Source of the DNA: a virus
Virus record (IMG/VR): IMGVR_UViG_3300042373_001275
Location: 1-27,835 of that record
Length of the DNA: 27,835 nt
Reading direction: 5' to 3' (one strand)
The notes below the pieces were generated by a model. That model saw nothing but the letters and a program-made list of their open reading frames with translations. It did no database searches and was not told the DNA's origin. The position numbers and the translations under genes were made by a program. Below, one piece after another: positions 1-26,770 of this stretch; the stretch's first letter is position 1, and every line of letters starts with the position of its first letter.

Positions 1-524
1 TGAAAATAGGTTTAGCAGGTACAATGTCTGTAGGTAAAACTACATTGGTTAAAGCATTATTAGAATTAGATGAGTTTAAGGATTATACTGGGTGTGTTGA
101 ACGATCTAAATACTTGAGTGATTTAGGTATCCCATTAAATACTGACTCTAGTGTTAAAGGTCAGTTGGTTTTCATTGCTGAGCGTGCGAGTGAATTATTT
201 AATGATAATCTATTAACTGACAGAACAGTATATGATGTTTGCGCATTTACTAAAGAAGCTAGGTCGATTAAGTCTAATGAAAAGGAGATATTATTTGACG
301 CAGCTATGTTGTTGGCTAAGCAATACGATATTATCTTTTATGTATCGCCAGAAGGTGTAGAAATTGAAGATAATGGTATTAGAGAAACTAATGCTGAATA
401 TCGGCATAAGATTGATTTATCTATTAAATGGTTTTTAAAAACATATCCTGCTAAACGTGTAGTTGAAATTAAAGGTAGTACTGAGGAGAGAATTGCTATC
501 ATATTAAATGAGTTAAAAAAATAA
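1..524 (+). CDS. Small P-loop nucleotide/nucleoside kinase-like protein (5' end cut by 1 base)
   Basis: The first in-frame ATG lies at 24, but the frame is open to base 1. The window begins with TG AAA ATA GGT TTA GCA GGT ACA, which with one missing A would give ATG and the N-terminus MKIGLAGT. This restores a complete Walker A motif, GTMSVGKT, which the internal ATG would cut through, so the real start is almost certainly one base outside the window and the protein is about 174 aa. After the P-loop come a DR-type motif (LLTDRTVYDV) typical of small nucleoside or nucleotide kinases and an arginine-bearing lid-like stretch (GIRETNAEYRHK). The family resembles AAA_28/NadR or dNMP-kinase-like phage proteins, presumably cytosolic and acting on nucleotides. 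The exact substrate cannot be read from the sequence. The gene ends TAA, 41 bases before the next start. Confidence 0.75.
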   Translation, partial: KIGLAGTMSVGKTTLVKALLELDEFKDYTGCVERSKYLSDLGIPLNTDSSVKGQLVFIAERASELFNDNLLTDRTVYDVCAFTKEARSIKSNEKEILFDAAMLLAKQYDIIFYVSPEGVEIEDNGIRETNAEYRHKIDLSIKWFLKTYPAKRVVEIKGSTEERIAIILNELKK

Positions 525-565: not shown

Positions 566-1516
566 ATGGAAGATAAATTAAAAGAAATAATTAATAAAAT
601 AGTACGTGAGGAGATCATGGGTGAAGCTACTAAACCAATGACTATTGATTACGCTGATGCTAATAAAGGGGACAAAATAATAAATGTAGATCCTAGTGAT
701 AAAGAAACAATAGATGCTATAAAAAAAGACCCAACAGTTAAAGCTGCTACACTTGGAAATACATCAATTAAAGAAATGGCTCGTGCTGCTGAAGTAAAAT
801 ACTCACTGAAACCAGATTTTCGTGGTGAATTAGAAAGTGTACAAGGTAAATTATCAAAATCAGAATTTAGAAGTTTAGTTGATATAGTTAAAGTATTAAA
901 AGATAAAGGCGAAGCATTAACAGCTACAGATATTTTAAAGTTTCATAACGAAGCTAATCCTGATCGTCAATATGCATCACAACAATCTTTTATTCGTCCA
1001 CTAGTAATTGGTGCGATTGGAAAGAAAAAAATATCATATGATGAACTGCCGTTTAGTGCCTCACAAAAAGATGTGTCAACAGGATTTGAAAAAGCAACTG
1101 GTGTGGTTACTCCATCTCAAGACCGCGGTTCAAAATTCGGTCGTGATATTGAGTATACTGCTGCTACTCAAGCTAATCCAGATTACATGCTTCCTGCAGA
1201 TCGCGCAGCATTAGCTGCTAAAACATTAGATTACAAACGTGCTCGTGAAGCTTATCGTAAGGCTGATAACGCTGCTGGAAAACAACAATATGTTGATAAA
1301 ATGCAATCTATGGTAGCTAACGATGATGAATTAGGACAAGAAATTGCTCAACAATATGCTGATGGATTAATTCAAACACAAGATCCAGTTACTTTAGAAT
1401 TAGCTAAAAAATTCCGTATCACTAAAAAGAAATACGGTATACCTAAAATTTCTGATAAAGAAACTAGAGATGCTGCCGCTATCGTTGGCGCTGAAGACGC
1501 TGAAGCAGAAGTATAA
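566..1516 (+). CDS. Unrecognised 316-aa phage protein, possible head-core/virion protein
   Basis: I do not recognise this family. It starts at an ATG after an A-rich leader (AACAAAATAATGG) with no Shine-Dalgarno. The N-terminus MEDKLKEIINKIVREEIMG is an amphipathic helix very like those of the proteins starting at 6690 and 8306, which lie in the head-core cluster. That suggests a common sorting signal and perhaps incorporation into the prohead. The rest is charged, soluble and mainly helical, with no membrane segment. A central region (about residues 85-150) resembles a small helical domain, and the C-terminus is Lys/Glu/Ala-rich. It sits alone between a promoter-like box and a strong intrinsic terminator, so it may be transcribed as a monocistron. 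It occupies the position where T4 has gp16 (small terminase), but I see no feature that supports that identity. Confidence 0.85.
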   Translation: MEDKLKEIINKIVREEIMGEATKPMTIDYADANKGDKIINVDPSDKETIDAIKKDPTVKAATLGNTSIKEMARAAEVKYSLKPDFRGELESVQGKLSKSEFRSLVDIVKVLKDKGEALTATDILKFHNEANPDRQYASQQSFIRPLVIGAIGKKKISYDELPFSASQKDVSTGFEKATGVVTPSQDRGSKFGRDIEYTAATQANPDYMLPADRAALAAKTLDYKRAREAYRKADNAAGKQQYVDKMQSMVANDDELGQEIAQQYADGLIQTQDPVTLELAKKFRITKKKYGIPKISDKETRDAAAIVGAEDAEAEV

Positions 1517-1548
1517 GATTTTTCATAATAATGTTTGTTTATTTAGAG

Positions 1549-1571
1549 AGTCCGCTTTTAGCGGACTTTTC
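1549..1571 (+). terminator. Rho-independent terminator
   Basis: AGTCCGCT (1549-1556), loop TTT, AGCGGACT (1560-1567): a perfect 8-bp GC-rich stem followed by TTTTCTTTTTC. It lies 32 bases after the stop of the 316-aa gene and just before the promoter-like box of the lipase gene. Confidence 0.9.
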
Positions 1572-1581
1572 TTTTTCTATA

Positions 1582-1592
1582 TATTTATATAC
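1582..1592 (+). promoter_or_regulatory. Candidate late promoter motif TATTTATATAC
   Basis: TATTTATATAC is a variant of the recurrent box. It sits between the terminator at 1549-1571 and the lipase ATG at 1604. A promoter is expected here because the terminator should isolate the lipase-terminase unit from the upstream gene. Confidence 0.5.
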
Positions 1593-1603
1593 AAAAATAT
1601 ATT

Positions 1604-2341
1604 ATGACAAGAAACGAAGCATTATATAACGCTAAATTAGCAGTGTTAGCTTATTCCAACCAAGATCAAATCATATGGGATGATTATGGATTAGAATTAG
1701 TAAAATGGATCGAACATAAAAAATCAGACACACAAGGATTTGTAGCAGTAAAAGATAAAACTATATATGTTGTGTGGAGAGGCAGCGAATCAAAGAAGGA
1801 TTTTCAAAACGATGCTTCAATTGATAAAGTACCATTTATAAACGAAGGTGAGAAAGTACATATTGGATTCAAGAGTTCCTGGGAATCAGTAGTAGGTGAT
1901 ACATATGATGCAATCGATACTGCATTAGAAAATCTACAAGGTGAAGCTACAGATATTGTAGTTTGTGGGCATAGTTTAGGTGGAGCAGTAGCAACATTGT
2001 ATGCACACTCAATTAAAAAACATTACCCACATTATAACGTTAAATCAACAACTATTGGTAGTCCTAGAGTTGGTAATAAAGTATTCAAAGAAAATTACGA
2101 TAATAGTGGTATAGATACTCTACGAATCGTACATAAAAACGATTTAGTAACTCATGTACCATATATTAGATTTCATCACGTAAACTACCAAGTAAGATTA
2201 GATACAGATGGTAATATATTAAAAAAAGAATCATCATTAAGATCACTTTGGTTATATCTTAAAGCATTATTTTCAGGCAAAACTGTCAAAGACCATATGG
2301 GTGATGGATATTTAAAAGCATTAGAAAACTGGATTAAATGA
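1604..2341 (+). CDS. Class 3 lipase-like alpha/beta hydrolase
   Basis: A 245-aa protein of the Lipase_3 (fungal triacylglycerol lipase-like) alpha/beta-hydrolase family, predicted to hydrolyse ester bonds in lipids. Visible family marks in order: the oxyanion-loop motif VVWRGSES (about 56-63), the nucleophile elbow GHSLGG (122-127, Ser124), the strand motif TTIGSPRVGN (149-158), the acid HKNDLVTHVP (Asp180), and a C-terminal DHMGDGYL in which His231 fits the catalytic His. The triad is therefore complete and the enzyme is probably active. There is no signal peptide or transmembrane segment, so it is cytosolic unless released by lysis or carried in the virion. Its TGA overlaps the terminase ATG (ATGA, 2338-2341), implying translational coupling and late expression with the packaging genes. 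A role in lysis, envelope disruption or entry is inference only. It is the only gene here with a TGA stop. Confidence 0.92.
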   Translation: MTRNEALYNAKLAVLAYSNQDQIIWDDYGLELVKWIEHKKSDTQGFVAVKDKTIYVVWRGSESKKDFQNDASIDKVPFINEGEKVHIGFKSSWESVVGDTYDAIDTALENLQGEATDIVVCGHSLGGAVATLYAHSIKKHYPHYNVKSTTIGSPRVGNKVFKENYDNSGIDTLRIVHKNDLVTHVPYIRFHHVNYQVRLDTDGNILKKESSLRSLWLYLKALFSGKTVKDHMGDGYLKALENWIK

Positions 2342-3909
2342 GCGAACAAAGTATAAAGGATATAATGCGGCAGGAGTATGTTAAATGTTTAACAGATCCT
2401 ATCCACTTTATGCGTAAGTACTGTATGGTACAACACCCAACTAGGGGACGTGTAAATTTTAATCTATACCCATTTCAAGAGCAAGTATTGAAGTTATGGT
2501 TAAAGAATGATTATACAATCATTAATAAATCACGTCAATTAGGTATATCAACGTTAGCTGCTGGTTTTTCATTATGGACAATGTTGTTTCATAAAGATAA
2601 AACAGTATTATGTATTGCAACTAAGCAATCAACAGCTGTAAACATGGTAGATAAGGTACAATTTATGTACCAACAATTACCAGCTTGGCTTAAAGGTAAA
2701 GAAAAACCCGATTCAAATAACAAATTATCATTAAAATTATCTAATGGATCCCAAATCGTTGCATCATCAGCTGCTTCCGATGCTGGTCGTTCATACGCTG
2801 TATCGTTACTACTAATTGATGAGGCTGCATTTATTGACGGGATTGATCGGATCTATACCGCAATTAAACCTACAATTTCATCTGGTGGTGGATGCATAGC
2901 ATTATCATCTCCAAATGGTATTGGTAACTGGTTCCATAAAACTTGGGTTGGTGCTATCAATAACGAAAATTCATTTTTACCAATCAAATTACCTTGGGAT
3001 GTACATCCTGAACGTGATGCTCAATGGTTCGAGAATGAAAAGGCAAATATGGGCACTCAAGAAATTGCCCAAGAATATGAATGTGACTTTTTAGCTTCTG
3101 GTAATAACGTTGTAACAAACGATATTCTAGAATACTATGAGCAGAATCACATTATGGATCCTGTTGAAAGACGTGGTATGGGTGGTGATTATTGGATTTG
3201 GGAATATCCAGATCCGTCTGAAACATATGTTGTATGTGCTGACGTTGCTCGTGGTGACGGAAGTGATTATTCAACATTTCATATTATAGCAACTAAAGCA
3301 TATAAACAAGTAGCTGAATTTAAATCTAAAATTGGTACTCGTGAATTTGCAAATAATTTAATTACAGCCGCTATTGAATATAATTCAGCATTATTAGTAA
3401 TTGAAAATGCAAATATTGGATGGGACGTTATTAATTCAATTATTGAACGTGGTTATTCAAATTTGTATCACTCTCCTAAAGGTGGTGATATGTCGATTGA
3501 TAATTTTGTGTACAAGATGGAAAATGATCAGACCGTTCCTGGATTGACTAACTCATCTAAAACACGCCCATTATTTATTTCTAAATTAGAATCTTCATTA
3601 CGCGATAAGCAATTTGTATTTTATTCTAAACGCCAATTAGAAGAACTAAGAACATTTATTTGGGATCATGGCAAAGCACAAGCCCAAGGAGGATATAATG
3701 ACGATTTAACAATGGCATTATCATTTGGTTTATATATTAGAGATACAGCATTAGTATATCACCAAAATGGACTAGAAATGACTAAAGCATCACTAAATGG
3801 AATCAATATAGCATCTTCAGGTATTAGTTCAGGAACTTATATGAGTGATAATCCTTGGCAAATGAGAGACACTCATGGCAATACAGAATCATTAAATTGG
3901 CTCCTTTAA
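2338..3909 (+). CDS. Terminase large subunit (gp17-like packaging ATPase/nuclease)
   Basis: The 523-aa DNA packaging motor and headful nuclease, which docks on the portal. N-terminal ATPase: the Walker A position reads NKSRQLGIST (63-72). It keeps the terminase SRQ hallmark, but the usual GKT lysine is replaced by Ile70. Walker B is LLLIDEAAF (157-165; Asp161, Glu162) and the coupling motif SSPNG is at 190-194. The C-terminal RNase H-like nuclease has the three expected acidic positions: ADVARGDGSD (Asp302), VIENANIGWD (Glu356) and GGYNDDLTMA (Asp455/Asp456). Length is shorter than T4 gp17 (610 aa) but covers both domains. The start overlaps the lipase stop by 4 bases. No gp16-like small subunit is recognised nearby, and the next gene is the portal rather than the sheath and tube genes seen in T4. 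Confidence 0.96.
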   Translation: MSEQSIKDIMRQEYVKCLTDPIHFMRKYCMVQHPTRGRVNFNLYPFQEQVLKLWLKNDYTIINKSRQLGISTLAAGFSLWTMLFHKDKTVLCIATKQSTAVNMVDKVQFMYQQLPAWLKGKEKPDSNNKLSLKLSNGSQIVASSAASDAGRSYAVSLLLIDEAAFIDGIDRIYTAIKPTISSGGGCIALSSPNGIGNWFHKTWVGAINNENSFLPIKLPWDVHPERDAQWFENEKANMGTQEIAQEYECDFLASGNNVVTNDILEYYEQNHIMDPVERRGMGGDYWIWEYPDPSETYVVCADVARGDGSDYSTFHIIATKAYKQVAEFKSKIGTREFANNLITAAIEYNSALLVIENANIGWDVINSIIERGYSNLYHSPKGGDMSIDNFVYKMENDQTVPGLTNSSKTRPLFISKLESSLRDKQFVFYSKRQLEELRTFIWDHGKAQAQGGYNDDLTMALSFGLYIRDTALVYHQNGLEMTKASLNGINIASSGISSGTYMSDNPWQMRDTHGNTESLNWLL

Positions 3910-3929
3910 ATTTCTTTATTATGTTTGTA

Positions 3930-3970: not shown

Positions 3971-5800
3971 ATGGCAATAGATACTAGTCTATTCGGACGA
4001 CTAAGAAGATTATTCTCCACTGATGTAATAATTAGAAATGTAGGAGGTAATCAATTACGTACGATTGATGTTGACCGACTACAGACTTACGGTAATATTC
4101 AAACCAATTCATTAATAGATAGATTCAATCGGATTCATGCTGGCAATTCAAAATTGTCATATACTCCATTAATGAATTACCAAACATTACGTACTTCACT
4201 TTACACGGACTATGAGGCAATGGATACAGATGCTATCATTGCTTCAGCGTTAGATATCATAGCTGATGAAGCTACTCTAAAAAACGAGCAGGGTGAAGTA
4301 CTACATATAAAATCTCCAAACGAGAAAACACAACGTGTACTTTATAATTTATTTTATGAAGTTCTAAACGTAGAATTTAATCTATGGTCATGGATTAGAA
4401 CGATGTGTAAGTATGGTGATTTTTATTTGCATTTAGATATTGCAGAAAAATTTGGTGTGTATAATGCACTCCCATTTTCTGTATATGATGTGCAACGCGA
4501 AGAAGGATCTAATCCAAACAATCCATCATATGTGCGTTTTAAGATTAACTTAAATCAATCATACGGATACGCTACAAACACAAATAAAGATGATTATTTT
4601 GAAAATTACGAAATAGCTCACTTTAGATTAATATCAGACCCATCATATTTGCCTTATGGCCGTTCATATCTTGAACCAGGTCGTAAAATATTCAAGCAAT
4701 TAACTTTAATGGAAGATGCGATGTTGATACATCGTATTATGCGTGCACCTGAAAAACGTATTTTCTATACAAACATTGGAAATATAGCTCCAAATGAAGT
4801 AGATGGATACATGGAGAAAATGAAGCAACGTATTAAGAAAACTCCATATATTGATCCTCAAACAGGCGATTATAACTTAAAGTACAATATGATGAATTTA
4901 ACTGAAGATTTCTATCTTCCAGTTAGAGGAAATGATACAACTACTAAAATCGATACTTTAAAAGGATTAGAGTATACAGCAATCGAAGACGTATCTTACT
5001 TACGTGATAAATTATTTGCTGCACTACGCGTTCCAAAAGCGTTCTTAGGATACGAAAAAGATTTAACTGGTAAAGCTACTTTAGCATCTGAAGATATTCG
5101 TTTTGCTCGTACAATAGAACGTGTACAACGTATTGTTGTATCTGAATTAACTAAAATCGCTTTAGTTCACTTATACACTCAAGGATTTGATGATGCTGAA
5201 TTAACGAATTTTGAATTATCGTTAACTACTCCATCTATCATTTATGAGCAAGAAAAAATTGCTCTATGGAAGGAAAAAGTTGAATTAGCTGGAAATATAA
5301 TGGATAAATCATTATTACCTACTGATTGGATTTACCAAAACATATTCCACTTCTCAGAAGATCAATACGCTGAGTTCCGTAACCAAACAATTGAAGATAA
5401 AAAACGTTCATTCCGTATTTCACAAATTGAAAATGAAGGTAATGATCCAGTTGATTCAGGTACATCATTTGGTACGCCACATGATTTAGCATCATTATAC
5501 GGTAAAGGCCGTTATGGCGAGGTACCTATTGGATACGATGAAAAAGAAGCAGGACGCCCTGAAGAAAAAGTATCTGATTATGGAACACAAAATCATGCAT
5601 TAGGTAAAGATCCAATCGGCGCTAAAGGTATGCACGAGCCATTAAAAGCAGCTGCAGGTACTGGTGCTACTTGGACGTTAGAGAATGCTAGAGTTGAATA
5701 CTTAAAAAACAAAAAAATGTTAGAAAGTATAAACGTAAAGAAAACCAACGTATTCGAAGAGCCTTCCATACTAAATGAATCAAATATTCAAGATATATAA
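3971..5800 (+). CDS. Portal vertex protein (gp20-like)
   Basis: A 609-aa homologue of the T4 portal protein gp20 (524 aa), which forms the dodecameric ring at the unique vertex through which DNA is packaged and to which the neck attaches. The N-terminal third carries the family pattern of a helical stretch with YEAMDTDAIIASALDIIADE followed by wing strands. The middle holds the RKIFKQLTLMEDAMLIHRI-type stem segment, RAPEKRIFYTNIGN and YLRDKLFAALRVPKAFLGYE, all characteristic of gp20-type portals. The C-terminal ~110 residues (from about 490) are Gly/Lys/Glu-rich and low in predicted structure, which accounts for the extra length over T4. The start is an ATG after AACACAAAATAAT with no Shine-Dalgarno. 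It follows its own promoter-like box and precedes the head-core cluster. Confidence 0.95.
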   Translation: MAIDTSLFGRLRRLFSTDVIIRNVGGNQLRTIDVDRLQTYGNIQTNSLIDRFNRIHAGNSKLSYTPLMNYQTLRTSLYTDYEAMDTDAIIASALDIIADEATLKNEQGEVLHIKSPNEKTQRVLYNLFYEVLNVEFNLWSWIRTMCKYGDFYLHLDIAEKFGVYNALPFSVYDVQREEGSNPNNPSYVRFKINLNQSYGYATNTNKDDYFENYEIAHFRLISDPSYLPYGRSYLEPGRKIFKQLTLMEDAMLIHRIMRAPEKRIFYTNIGNIAPNEVDGYMEKMKQRIKKTPYIDPQTGDYNLKYNMMNLTEDFYLPVRGNDTTTKIDTLKGLEYTAIEDVSYLRDKLFAALRVPKAFLGYEKDLTGKATLASEDIRFARTIERVQRIVVSELTKIALVHLYTQGFDDAELTNFELSLTTPSIIYEQEKIALWKEKVELAGNIMDKSLLPTDWIYQNIFHFSEDQYAEFRNQTIEDKKRSFRISQIENEGNDPVDSGTSFGTPHDLASLYGKGRYGEVPIGYDEKEAGRPEEKVSDYGTQNHALGKDPIGAKGMHEPLKAAAGTGATWTLENARVEYLKNKKMLESINVKKTNVFEEPSILNESNIQDI

Positions 5801-5835: not shown

Positions 5836-6690
5836 ATGTCTAAATTAAAAAATTCTAAATACAAAAACACTGGCATATTATTTGAGCTATTAGTGCGCCA
5901 AATTGCTAGTGATATTTTGTCTAATAAAGAACCACACGCGGCTACTTTAGTTAAAAAATATTTTTCAAATACGGAAATAGCTAAAGAACACAAATTATAT
6001 CAAACATTAATTAATGTACAATCATTAGCCGAATCAAAAGCAGATAGCTTAGTTGAAACTATCTTAAAATTATCTGAAAAATTAAATAAAACTGCATTAC
6101 GTAAGGAAAAATATAACTTGATTAAAGACATCAAGGAAAATTATAACTTAGAAGATTTTTTTAAAGCTAAGATTCAAAACTATAAAATTAATGCTGCCAT
6201 TTTTAATTTAATGGAAGCACATACTTCAGCTGAATTTACTGATCCTAAAATCGTTATTGATAACCGAGTAACTTTACTTGAGTTTTTAACTAATAAATCA
6301 ATAGATAAAGCAGTAGTAAAGGATCAAGTGATGGAAGAATACGCTAAGCAAGATAAAAGCACACGTATGATGATCTATAAAATGGTAGTTGAAAACTTCA
6401 ACTCAAAATATACAGATCTACTACCAGAACAAAAAACATTATTGTCTGAATTCATTAAGAACATATCCAATACTGTATCATTAAAAGAATACGTTAATAA
6501 TCAAATTCAAAACGTTAAGTTAGAATTAGAAGTATTAACATCTAAAATTACAGATAAAAAAATACAAATCAAATTATCAGAAGTAAATAATATACTAAAT
6601 ATGATCCCTAAATCGGAAAATATATCTGATGATGATGTATTGAATTTAATGAATTATTACGAATTATTACACGAGTTAAGAACAGCATAA
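5836..6690 (+). CDS. Unassigned 284-aa helical protein in head-core cluster
   Basis: The family is not identified with certainty. The protein is Lys/Leu/Asn-rich and almost wholly helical, without membrane segments. It opens with MSKLKNSKYKNTGILFELL and a predicted helix (VRQIASDILSN), and has coiled-coil-like stretches near 60-85 and 215-245. It lies directly downstream of the portal and upstream of the protease, where T4 encodes the prohead-core proteins gp67 and gp68. That makes a prohead-core or portal-associated assembly role plausible, but it is inferred from position only. Its TAA overlaps the next ATG by one base (TAATG at 6688-6692), so translation is probably coupled. Confidence 0.85.
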   Translation: MSKLKNSKYKNTGILFELLVRQIASDILSNKEPHAATLVKKYFSNTEIAKEHKLYQTLINVQSLAESKADSLVETILKLSEKLNKTALRKEKYNLIKDIKENYNLEDFFKAKIQNYKINAAIFNLMEAHTSAEFTDPKIVIDNRVTLLEFLTNKSIDKAVVKDQVMEEYAKQDKSTRMMIYKMVVENFNSKYTDLLPEQKTLLSEFIKNISNTVSLKEYVNNQIQNVKLELEVLTSKITDKKIQIKLSEVNNILNMIPKSENISDDDVLNLMNYYELLHELRTA

Positions 6691-9367: not shown

Positions 9368-9378
9368 TATTTATGGCA
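9368..9378 (+). promoter_or_regulatory. Candidate late promoter TATTTATGGCA (scaffold-capsid)
   Basis: TATTTATGGCA matches TATTTATAACA at 9 of 11 positions and follows the terminator directly, so it should start the scaffold-capsid transcript. An ATG embedded in it (9373) opens the scaffold frame but is unlikely to be used. The implied leader to the ATG at 9478 is about 100 bases, longer than for other units here. Confidence 0.5.
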
Positions 9379-9477
9379 GACTCAAATATACCATGTCTAT
9401 ATGGTATCACAAAAACAAGTACAACCCCCATTAAGATTCATAATAATCTTATTTCCAAAAACAAAATTAAGGATAAA

Positions 9478-10515
9478 ATGAGTAACACAAAGCAAATTTT
9501 AAAAGATGCTATTGCTGATGCTAAAGCCGTTCGTGAAACTGCTCTTGCTAATGCTAAACTTGCTCTTGAAGAAGCTTTCACTCCACAATTACAATCTATG
9601 TTAGCTGCAAAGTTAAACGAGATGGAGGAAGAAGACGAAGACAAGATGGAAGAAGCTAAAAAAGCAGACGATCAAATGGAAGAAACTCTTGACTTAGAAG
9701 CATTATTAGCTGAGGCTGATGATGAAGAAGAAAAAGAAGCAGAAGAAAAAGCATCTGAAGAAGCACCTGAAGCAGGTGAAGAAAAAGAAGGCGAAAAAGA
9801 AGAAGATAAAGATATCACTGAAATGTCGCCTGAAGAAGTTGAAGAATATATTCGCCAAATTGCGGCTGAAGAATTCGAAAAATTAGAAACTGAACAAGGC
9901 GAGGAAATTCCTGGCAAAGACGGTGGAGAAGAAATCGATTTAGATGCTGAATTAGGAGCTGATGCTGCCGGTGAAGAAGAAGAAATCAACTTAGACGAAA
10001 TGATCGACGAAATGTATGATGATAAAGACGAAGATAAAATGGATGAAAATGACATTAATATCGACGAATTATTAGCTGAATTCGGTCTATCAGAAGAAGA
10101 AGAAGTAGAAGAAGGATATGGCAAAGACGAAGATGATTCTAAATCTAAAATGGAAGAAGAATTAGCTCAAGCTTTAGCTACAATCGATGAACTTCGTTCT
10201 TCAATTCAAGAAGTTAATTTGCTAAACGCAAAATTACTTTACATGAATAAAGTATTCAAAGGTACTAACTTAACTGAATCACAAAAGATCGACGTAGTTA
10301 AAACTTTTGACAAAGCTGAATCAGCGAAAGAAGCTAAATTGGTTTACGAATCAATAATTACTTCATTCTCTAAGAAAGCTGAAACAAAATCTGCGATTAA
10401 AGAATCAGTTGGTTTTGCTTCAAAAGCAGTAGGAATGATTACTAATAGCGGTGCTAAAGTAATCGAAACTGATGCTCAATACAACCGTTGGGAAAAATTA
10501 GCCTTCGGTAAATAA
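9478..10515 (+). CDS. Prohead scaffolding core protein (gp22-like)
   Basis: A major scaffold protein that nucleates capsid assembly and is later degraded by the prohead protease. The C-terminal ~75 residues carry the family signature, NAKLLYMNKVFKGTNLTESQ followed by KIDVVKTFDKAESAKEAKLV, as in gp22. The middle (about residues 45-220) is extremely acidic, with long Glu/Asp runs and helical coiled-coil character, plus many (L/I)xE sites such as LLAEA that suit gp21 cleavage. I place the start at ATG 9478 (MSNTKQILKDAIADAK) after AAGGATAAA, giving 345 aa. The frame is open from ATG 9373, but that ATG lies inside the promoter-like box and the extra 35 residues look non-coding. It is followed by the capsid gene after 25 bases, without a separate promoter. 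Confidence 0.93.
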   Translation: MSNTKQILKDAIADAKAVRETALANAKLALEEAFTPQLQSMLAAKLNEMEEEDEDKMEEAKKADDQMEETLDLEALLAEADDEEEKEAEEKASEEAPEAGEEKEGEKEEDKDITEMSPEEVEEYIRQIAAEEFEKLETEQGEEIPGKDGGEEIDLDAELGADAAGEEEEINLDEMIDEMYDDKDEDKMDENDINIDELLAEFGLSEEEEVEEGYGKDEDDSKSKMEEELAQALATIDELRSSIQEVNLLNAKLLYMNKVFKGTNLTESQKIDVVKTFDKAESAKEAKLVYESIITSFSKKAETKSAIKESVGFASKAVGMITNSGAKVIETDAQYNRWEKLAFGK

Positions 10516-12291: not shown

Positions 12292-13071
12292 TCAAATATA
12301 TTCTTCAACTAATTGAAATAATTGTTTATTAATTTCAATATCTTCTTTTATATTATTAACACCTAATAATGGTTTACCTTGTAGATTAATTAATATATTA
12401 TTTTTGGTTAATCCTTCTTGAACGCGATTATACACAGTGTATAAATCATTATCAGCATCTTCTTTACGACGAACATCTAATAATTGATTAATAATATGAC
12501 GCTCAACATCATCACCAAAACGTAAACGAGCAGCACGTTCAGCTAAATCATTCATCTCATCTTCATTTAAATCAACATTAGCCATTTGATTTAACTTTTT
12601 CATAAATTCATTAACATTATTTACAGTTGATTGAATAATATTAGGTAGATTATCGAATGAGCGTTTAGTATGTGATATATTGTTTTCCCACGCGGTATCC
12701 ATCGCCCACATTCCATTACTGCATACTTGACGATATACTCCTAAATCTATATTGAGTGGTGAACTGCCGCATACTTTATTAGAGATTAATAACTGCGATT
12801 TACCTTCATTATTTGATTTAACGTTCAGATTCAGATCAGGATGTGTTAGTTTAATAAAATGTTGATTTACTTGGCCATTCTTACCTTTGCGTTTTTCAGC
12901 TACACCGTCAATATTCCATCCTGAATCCATTAATGGGTTTAAAATATCTTGTGTATTAATAGTATATGGTTTACTTTTAATTAGTTGATCATCTCTAAAA
13001 TTTAGATGCATGGACGGAGCAAAAGCTAATGCTTTATCAAATGAATTTACTGGAATAAAATTGTGTCGCAT
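12292..13071 (-). CDS. DUF932-like phage/plasmid protein
   Basis: A 259-aa minus-strand protein that looks like the DUF932 family, common on phages and plasmids and of unproven biochemical role. Supporting marks: the central PLNIDLGVYRQVCSNGMWAM block, where the family has a lineage-specific 'R-x-VCSNG' core (CSNG at 117-120), the preceding HFIKLTHPDLNLNVKSNN strand pair, and the C-terminal NNIKEDIEINKQLFQLVEEY ending typical of the family. No signal peptide or membrane segment. It lies 11 bases downstream of the RadA-like ATPase gene on the same strand and is almost certainly co-transcribed, hinting at a shared role in DNA metabolism. That link is inference. It faces the capsid gene and lies in an island of non-structural genes. 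Confidence 0.75.
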   Translation of the reverse strand: MRHNFIPVNSFDKALAFAPSMHLNFRDDQLIKSKPYTINTQDILNPLMDSGWNIDGVAEKRKGKNGQVNQHFIKLTHPDLNLNVKSNNEGKSQLLISNKVCGSSPLNIDLGVYRQVCSNGMWAMDTAWENNISHTKRSFDNLPNIIQSTVNNVNEFMKKLNQMANVDLNEDEMNDLAERAARLRFGDDVERHIINQLLDVRRKEDADNDLYTVYNRVQEGLTKNNILINLQGKPLLGVNNIKEDIEINKQLFQLVEEYI

Positions 13072-13082
13072 ATTATAGTTAT

Positions 13083-13877
13083 TTATTGTTTTTCTTCTTC
13101 TTCAAATGTATAAAATACTTTATCTTTATAAAACGAAAAATACATTTTAAAATCTTTATCGCAATCTCTATTTTTAGAAAAATAAATAGTACGCTGTAAT
13201 CTATCTCTAGAACGTTCAATATGCGCCATCGAATCAGTCATGTGTTTGATTCTGTTTGATCCAACAAAATCATCTCCTTTAGTTACTTGTTGTACATTAA
13301 TAAATGATGTATAATAACTACCCTGATTATTACCCTTTTTAATACGATCTTCTAAACCTAATAACCAACGTTCAGCAAAATATTCAGTTGTTTTATATTG
13401 TTCTTTATACATTCCAACCAATTCAGCTAACGAGTCAACAACTACTACATCCCAACCTTGATCGAATGTGTATTCGATTGTTGATTTAATATTTGTAGCA
13501 TAATTTTTAGCAAATAATACAGGAATATTTTCAAATTGAGGTAATCGCTTACAGTACTTATAATAACCAATTTCATCCATTTCAGCAGATACAAATAAAC
13601 ATTTATATCCTTGATTAATCAATTTAGAAATCATATCTAATGCTATAGTTGTTTTACCAGTACCTGGCCCACCAACAATAACCATATTAACAGCAGGCAT
13701 TATACCACCATCAGTAGATAAAATCATATCTAGTTCTGATTCTGTTTTTAATGGTTCAAATAATGTATTACTGAAATTTAATTGTTTGTTATAAACAATT
13801 TTAATTGATTGTGGATCGAATGTTTCAACCACGTCTCTTTCTTTAGCCGGACGGCCTCTTTTAATTTGATTATTCAT
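13083..13877 (-). CDS. RadA/KaiC-type RecA-fold ATPase with N-terminal AT-hook-like motif
   Basis: A 264-aa minus-strand RecA-fold ATPase. Walker A is GGPGTGKTT (69-77), SAEM at 97-100 is the usual post-strand acidic position, and Walker B is VVVVDSLAEL (144-153). The block NVQQVTKGDDFVGSNRIKHM, then TDSMAHIERSRDRLQRTIYF and SKNRD, follows the RadA/Sms order (TK, G-x-x-x-leu/ile-x-H-M-x-D, ... R ... KNR). It lacks the RadA zinc finger and the Lon-like C-terminal domain, so it is a core-only version. In a phage it would be expected to act in recombination, branch migration or replication. The N-terminus has KRGRPAKE (6-13), an AT-hook-like GRP motif that may add AT-rich DNA binding. It is first in a two-gene operon with the DUF932-like gene and divergent from the PhoH-like gene. 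Confidence 0.8.
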   Translation of the reverse strand: MNNQIKRGRPAKERDVVETFDPQSIKIVYNKQLNFSNTLFEPLKTESELDMILSTDGGIMPAVNMVIVGGPGTGKTTIALDMISKLINQGYKCLFVSAEMDEIGYYKYCKRLPQFENIPVLFAKNYATNIKSTIEYTFDQGWDVVVVDSLAELVGMYKEQYKTTEYFAERWLLGLEDRIKKGNNQGSYYTSFINVQQVTKGDDFVGSNRIKHMTDSMAHIERSRDRLQRTIYFSKNRDCDKDFKMYFSFYKDKVFYTFEEEEKQ

Positions 13878-18453: not shown

Positions 18454-19416
18454 ATGGCAGTTTGGAAAAAAGTCATTGTATCAGGTAGTGTAGCTGAACT
18501 ATCCGCAGTATCAGCAAGTGCCTTTTACGTACAGAATGGTCAATTAATAACAACATCTCCTTCATCAACAATACTATCTGGTTCATTTTCAGGATCATTT
18601 AGAGGAAATGGAAGCGGATTAACTAATGTAGCTCTAGACTCAGCTATTACTAATGGTACTGGAGTCTCAGCATTTTCATATAATGGTACTGGTTCAGCTA
18701 CAGTAGCAGTTTCTGGTTCATCCGCTTTATCTTCAAATAGAATTTCGAAATGGACTGGAGATGCATTTGCAGATACTACTTTAACAGATAATGGAACTGT
18801 AGTTTCAGGTGCTAGTTCAATTCAGTTAACTGGAGCTAGTTCACAATTAACCGGTTCATTTACTGGATCGTTTGCTGGTGATGGTGCTAATTTAACTGGC
18901 TTAGTTAGTACATTATTCATTAGTGCATCTACTGCAGGTGGAGTTTTATCATCTGGTTCAATCGATCTAAAAACAGAAACATTAAAAATTAATGGTACTG
19001 CTAATGAAATCGATACTGATTATAATGATACTACAAATACATTAACTGTTGGTTTACCTAATAGTGTAAGTATTACTACTGATTTAACAGTTGGAGGCAA
19101 TTTAACTGTAAATGGTGATTTAACTTATTTAAATGTAGCTAATTTAGCAGTTGAAGATAAATTCATATTATTAAATTCTGGCTCAACAAATCCAGACGAA
19201 GCTGGTTTAATAGTAGATGAAGGAAATGGTATTGGACACGCATTTGCATTTGATGGTGGTACTACTCGTTGGGGTTTTACAGCATCTTTAAATTCTACAG
19301 CAAGTTCTTTCGTTCCAGATGCTTTTGCGGCCGCAGTAGTAACTTCAGACATAGTTGAGTATCAAAAAGTAGGTAATATTAGAGTAGAAAGCGGAGAAAT
19401 TTATATTTACGTTTAA
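18454..19416 (+). CDS. Modular tail fibre/structural protein (320 aa)
   Basis: A Ser/Gly/Thr-rich fibre-like protein of 320 aa. It opens with MAVWKKVIVSGSVAELSAVS, closely matching the start of the protein at 19760 (MPNWKKLIVSGSDASLNSLN), so both probably dock by the same N-terminal module. Two FxGxGxxLT modules follow: GSFSGSFRGNGSGLTNV (about 46-62) and GSFTGSFAGDGANLTGL (about 133-149). Near 207-240 a regular strand repeat, TTDLTVGGNLTVNGDLTYLN, leads into VANLAVEDKFILLNSGS, then a terminal globular part (AGLIVDEGNGIGHAFAFDGG ... WGFTAS). This is typical of phage fibre proteins with a triple-stranded shaft and a C-terminal head. No intramolecular chaperone domain is recognised. It has its own promoter-like box upstream. 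Confidence 0.82.
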   Translation: MAVWKKVIVSGSVAELSAVSASAFYVQNGQLITTSPSSTILSGSFSGSFRGNGSGLTNVALDSAITNGTGVSAFSYNGTGSATVAVSGSSALSSNRISKWTGDAFADTTLTDNGTVVSGASSIQLTGASSQLTGSFTGSFAGDGANLTGLVSTLFISASTAGGVLSSGSIDLKTETLKINGTANEIDTDYNDTTNTLTVGLPNSVSITTDLTVGGNLTVNGDLTYLNVANLAVEDKFILLNSGSTNPDEAGLIVDEGNGIGHAFAFDGGTTRWGFTASLNSTASSFVPDAFAAAVVTSDIVEYQKVGNIRVESGEIYIYV

Positions 19417-26765: not shown

Positions 26766-26770
26766 TTAAA

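Follow-up and report, generated by a model that had tools for sequence, protein, structure and literature searches.

A class 3 lipase gene inserted between terL and its leader in uncultured phages probably of Bacteroidota, and its proposed role in lysis

The stretch of viral DNA analysed here (the window; 27,835 nucleotides) carries, directly ahead of the gene for the terminase large subunit (terL), a class 3 lipase gene that is, by comparison with related phages, an optional insertion between terL and the leader of terL, with its stop coupled to the terL start. Since related phages keep the lipase among cell-bursting and envelope genes, it probably helps to break host membranes, and we propose, at a probability of roughly 0.55, that it is a late cytoplasmic enzyme that would attack envelope lipids at lysis; its activity, its late timing and its part in lysis are each predicted. 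The Lipase_3 enzyme family and phage lipases are already known. What is new is the optional insertion into the terL leader, the other genomic homes of the gene and its recurrent pairing with a small gene of lysis type, in uncultured phages probably of Bacteroidota.

Results

Gene neighbourhood and probable host

In the window, a virus record of 27.8 kb, T4-type head genes were recognized, namely those for terL, the portal protein, the prohead protease and the major capsid protein (Table 1). Because the closest named terL belongs to Flavobacterium phage immuto (51%), the host is likely to be a member of the Bacteroidota. The N-terminus of orf316 (MEDKLKEIINKIVREEI) resembles the N-termini of the ORFs at 6690 and 8306, and is perhaps a capsid-targeting or scaffold signal. 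Two genes on the reverse strand (DUF932 and a KaiC/RecA-like ATPase; window 12292-13877) break up the forward late region.

Table 1. Features at and around the lipase gene of the window
Feature	Position	Strand	Remarks
AAA_28 / thymidylate-kinase-like gene	24..524	+	conserved upstream neighbour
orf316, upstream gene	566..1516	+	no known family; neutral probe for full versus empty sites
intrinsic-terminator-like hairpin after orf316	stem 1546..1570	+	leader fold z -4.0; kept before terL in lipase-free relatives
ATATTTATA box, late-promoter-like	1581..1589	+	23 nt before lipase; 23-25 nt before terL in lipase-free relatives
class 3 lipase gene	1604..2341	+	ATG start; 245 aa; S124, D180, H231; WRGSES oxyanion region; DHMxxxY His motif
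terL, terminase large subunit	2338..3909	+	start overlaps lipase stop (AAATGA)
portal protein (gp20-like)	3971..5800	+	own ATATTTATA box at 3929

The gene encodes a complete class 3 lipase

The initial annotation of this DNA had described a complete class 3 lipase without a signal peptide, whose stop overlaps the terminase start, and each of these points was borne out. The Lipase_3 profile search that it had proposed matched the ORF at 1604-2341 to Pfam PF01764 with an E-value of 3.6e-31 and 108 bits, well above the gathering score of 22, and all residues were found where the annotation had placed them (S124 within GHSLGG, D180, H231 and WRGS at 58-61). The TGA stop overlaps the ATG of terL at 2338, and neither a signal peptide nor a propeptide was seen in the 245-aa product. 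The PHROGs profile phrog_21992 'esterase/lipase' matched residues 53-201 (E 8.7e-13). When solved structures were searched with phmmer, the top matches were the triacylglycerol lipases of Rhizopus and Rhizomucor (1e-22), and a profile of 41 relatives aligned with these enzymes (E 5e-25) over a span that takes in the catalytic Ser, Asp and His. In this alignment S124 pairs with the catalytic Ser of the Rhizopus and Rhizomucor lipases, D180 with their Asp (HKRDIVPHVP) and H231 with their His (DHL). None of the three residues varies, down to 53% identity, either among the 41 relatives or in a further set of 27 sequences, which adds five more distant relatives.

An AlphaFold model of the protein had a pLDDT of 82-84, with low confidence at residues 225-231, the loop before His231, and its best Foldseek matches in the PDB were class 3 lipases and feruloyl esterases (E down to 2e-14). 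The dN/dS of 0.08-0.19 points to clear purifying selection. The product can therefore be described, by alignment, as a complete class 3 (Lipase_3) protein with a Ser-Asp-His triad, and it is presumably an intact and active serine (phospho)lipase. A derivation of the gene from a host was considered and set aside: a pattern scan of genome_contigs (84,980 species), which reaches close relatives only, found no relative of the lipase.

The lipase lies between terL and the leader of terL

According to the initial annotation, a terminator and a promoter-like box precede the lipase and imply its late expression with the packaging genes. Both elements are present, but they belong to terL, as they also stand before terL in lipase-free relatives. 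This was seen when contigs were fetched with orf316, a probe that is independent of the lipase: of 26 informative contigs, 20 have the order orf316-lipase-terL and 6 have orf316-terL with no lipase, counts that include some near-identical contigs and are hence not all independent. At the empty sites the terminator and the box run directly into the terL ATG (...TATATATTTATATACAAAACTACATT-ATGAGTGAAGCA), where the window reads ...TATATATTTATATACAAAAATATATT-ATG(lipase)...AAATGAGCGAACAA. The box together with a hairpin-like stretch was also found before terL in several lipase-free relatives with 61-64% terL, and the box before terL in Flavobacterium phage immuto. Because both elements directly precede terL in empty relatives, and the box does so in distant ones as well, sequence comparison assigns the leader to terL, and therefore the lipase was inserted between the leader and its gene. 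No gene was replaced by the insertion, and about a quarter of the sampled close relatives do without the lipase. Clean full and empty sites of this kind show that a late gene was added without a new promoter. Some sites vary further: two contigs (L006 and L021) have one additional gene between the box and the lipase, four (L009, L010, L031 and L032) have no close orf316, and in L031 and L009 a 391-aa protein replaces it.

The exact 9-mer ATATTTATA occurs seven times on the + strand of the window (at 527, 1581, 3929, 5809, 14736, 18416 and 26770). Upstream of 26765 there are 834 intergenic bases, which contain six of these copies; the seventh lies just past the fibre gene, at 26770. The first six stand 23-42 nt ahead of orf316, the lipase, the portal gene, orf284, a 384-aa gene and the gene at 18454. 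This intergenic DNA would be expected to contain 0.27 copies and has 6, the observed count being set at 6 with one extra copy attributed to the joining of intergenic pieces, and the maximum in 500 dinucleotide-preserving shuffles of intergenic DNA was 2, so the enrichment of the box exceeds chance. It is limited to the exact 9-mer in intergenic DNA: TATATTTATA with one mismatch was at chance level over the whole window, and a sigma-70 promoter scan gave nothing above chance. These data make ATATTTATA a candidate for the late promoter used by this group of phages. Within the box lies the reverse complement, without a mismatch, of TATAAATA, the late promoter of T4, yet the box sits ahead of + strand genes.

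Most lipases of related phages are found away from terL

The annotation had regarded the lipase as tied to the terminase and had suggested a survey of related phages for the gene pair. In IMG/VR we found 67 lipase contigs. The pair does recur: apart from the window, 30 contigs have a lipase gene that overlaps terL; the other 37 hold the lipase elsewhere, mostly among membrane and secreted proteins. Together with the 6 empty sites, this contradicts a fixed tie, and the gene does not track packaging as such; nor does it resemble a component of a T4-type packaging operon, whose presence with terL would be obligate. We therefore rejected a packaging-specific lipase. An accessory of packaging that acts specifically with TerL could account for the 30 gene overlaps, but the retention of terL without the lipase in close relatives and the position of the lipase far from terL in other phages leave it a negligible prospect. 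In the lipase tree, the terL-linked copies are nested in a larger diversity. Since the deepest branches all sit outside terL, the terL site is a derived home of the gene. A single clade of terL-linked lipases was neither rejected nor established (p-AU 0.17), which leaves one move or several. A literature search turned up no paper on a class 3 lipase gene next to that of a terminase.

Away from terL, the usual home of the lipase is a cluster of genes for small proteins of membrane or secreted type. At least two of the cluster genes TM108, TM111, TM95/98 and sec239 are present in 29 of the 37 loci, and all of the 37 but one (L040) have at least one marker of the cluster set or of its usual neighbour genes. 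Two long contigs with a terL-linked lipase (G042 and G045) keep the same cluster without the lipase; in these two, a GH19 endolysin that has a peptidoglycan-binding domain (phrog_181, 2e-71) and an ORF of lipoprotein type are part of it. In cultured flavophages, GH19 proteins encoded close to candidate holins and spanins have been interpreted as endolysins (PMC8776804). We rejected GH19 as a constant neighbour of the lipase, as it lies elsewhere in lipase-cluster phages and far from the lipase in several genomes. A secreted protein of 237-239 aa is encoded in the lipase/lysis-like cluster (for example L187:16833-17546, reverse strand, and L041:4275-4994); one of the eight members of this family matches Pfam CsgG (E 8.5e-5), and a search for a PDB match gave none. 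A phage-encoded protein resembling an outer-membrane channel would be odd.

In four contigs (L046, L048, L062 and L460) the lipase adjoins a 78-aa ORF that looks tail-collar-like by eye. This neighbour, and the GDSL lipase domains that a Bacteroidetes phage is reported to carry in a tail-fibre gene (PMC7468147), would suit a hydrolase carried in the virion or on the tail, serving entry or the cutting of surface polymers. We consider this improbable, as the lipase of the window lies some 20 kb away from the fibre gene and is coupled to that of an enzyme absent from the virion, terL, and no relative examined has a lipase fused to tail domains.

A small gene beside the lipase also borders unrelated endolysins

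The additional gene of L006 and L021 encodes 88 aa, in which KLKEQSFTIILLVGILYYQN leads into a charged stretch of coiled-coil-like character; its short hydrophobic segment scores below the TM cut-off used. In four contigs (L006, L021, L044 and L064) the same gene directly precedes the lipase, overlapping or touching its start. Their lipases share 53-94% identity with that of the window; the first two are terL-linked, and the other two encode far lipases (53-63%). A search with the 88-aa protein found 124 loci, of which 80 were kept. A GH19 gene lies within about 4 kb in 26 of the 80, in several cases directly adjacent, and other neighbours are Amidase_2 (L293, 1.2e-12), a phage lysozyme of GH24 (L324, 8.5e-35) and a CHAP endolysin (L064, 1.2e-9), so that the gene borders four unrelated endolysin families. 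In L064 the CHAP endolysin stands beside the lipase. Because this small gene stays beside unrelated wall enzymes, the best explanation is that it encodes a lysis protein, a reading drawn from context, since the match to the spanin profile phrog_739 is weak (E 0.057). The lipase occupies the same kind of place next to the 88-aa gene as the wall enzymes do.

The family of 80-90 aa to which this protein belongs (L249-L327) is widespread beside the four endolysin families and is a candidate i-spanin or holin, so far unannotated, probably from phages of Bacteroidota. Five loci (L262, L265, L266, L277 and L318) have a gene of the 88-aa family directly before a prohead-core-like gene resembling window 9373-10515, and in the same five it overlaps another small gene, of TM/coiled-coil type.

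These neighbours bear on two further explanations. As an auxiliary metabolic enzyme, the lipase would cut host membrane lipids within the cell, freeing fatty acids or remodelling the envelope during virion production, independently of lysis. Its lack of a signal peptide, its optional presence and cargo-like movement between sites, and the common occurrence of lipases with this fold in unrelated large DNA viruses would all fit, but the late-type box ahead of the gene and the kind of neighbours that recur, which are membrane or secreted proteins and, by way of the 88-aa partner, endolysins, and not genes of metabolism, make this explanation unlikely, if the strongest of the alternatives. Alternatively, a mobile and optional ORF with coupled ends might be moron cargo that excludes or harms competing phages or cells and came to lie near lysis genes by chance; with the 88-aa/lipase pair retained in L044 and L064, where the lipases have diverged so far from that of the window, we hold this to be very improbable.

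Discussion

The role in lysis that had been suggested for this lipase is plausible, and for the lysis reading we count the fold, the aligned triad, the dN/dS, the empty sites with a conserved leader, the box before late genes, the cluster homes and the 88-aa partner beside endolysins. Against it, the cluster also holds the CsgG-like protein and non-lysis genes, GH19 is far from the lipase in several genomes, and some lipases have the tail-collar-like ORF beside them; in the window, no lysis gene was found near the lipase. The absence of the lipase from some close relatives, the weak spanin match of the 88-aa protein and the low TM score of its hydrophobic segment also count against this reading. 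As we picture it, the gene was transferred into the terL transcript, where it would borrow the terL promoter in the leader and be coupled to terL in translation. The lipase would then be made late, on one transcript with the terminase, and, having no signal peptide, would accumulate in the cytoplasm. Opening of the membrane would give it access to membrane lipids, and it would hydrolyse the acyl esters of envelope lipids, thereby assisting endolysin and spanin- or holin-like proteins to complete envelope disruption and release the virions.

In phages of Gram-negative hosts, the breaching of the outer membrane is generally ascribed to spanins or disruptins, and the lysis of Bacteroidota by phages is little studied. 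A lipase that belonged to such a module would offer an enzymatic route, much as LysB does in mycobacteriophages. More tentatively, a cytoplasmic class 3 (phospho)lipase and a small hydrophobic/coiled-coil protein could form, in Bacteroidota phages, an enzymatic envelope-disruption step that complements or replaces spanin-type fusion, as a module whose position shifts between the region of lysis genes and late promoters elsewhere.

Among known systems, the Lipase_3 enzymes of Rhizomucor and Rhizopus (1tgl, 1lgy, 6a0w) share with the phage protein the fold, the GHSLGG elbow, the Asp, a DH-type His motif and an RGxxS oxyanion motif; the phage lipase differs in its length of 245 aa, in the lack of a visible secretion signal or propeptide, and in being a predicted phage late gene. 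Flavobacterium phage immuto has the same terL-portal-protease order and the box before terL, and no lipase relative was found anywhere in its genome. In a phage of Pseudomonas syringae pv. actinidiae, thus of a Gram-negative host, a lipase adjoins holin and endolysin in the lysis cassette and had esterase activity in a chimera (PMC12173070); unlike the window lipase, it has a carbohydrate-binding domain as well as a helix. The LysB proteins of mycobacteriophages, alpha/beta-hydrolase esterases as the window lipase is predicted to be, are used in lysis. LysB is described as active in the third lysis step, like spanins, and phage Ms6 without LysB still lyses its host while the virions stay trapped (PMC5707550). 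LysB is a mycolyl-arabinogalactan esterase, whereas the window lipase belongs to a different family, with Lipase_3 as its best profile and a weak match to the endolysin phrog_102 (E 0.001) as its only lysis-class PHROG match. By analogy, the window lipase is best read as having a LysB-like role, performed by an enzyme of another family.
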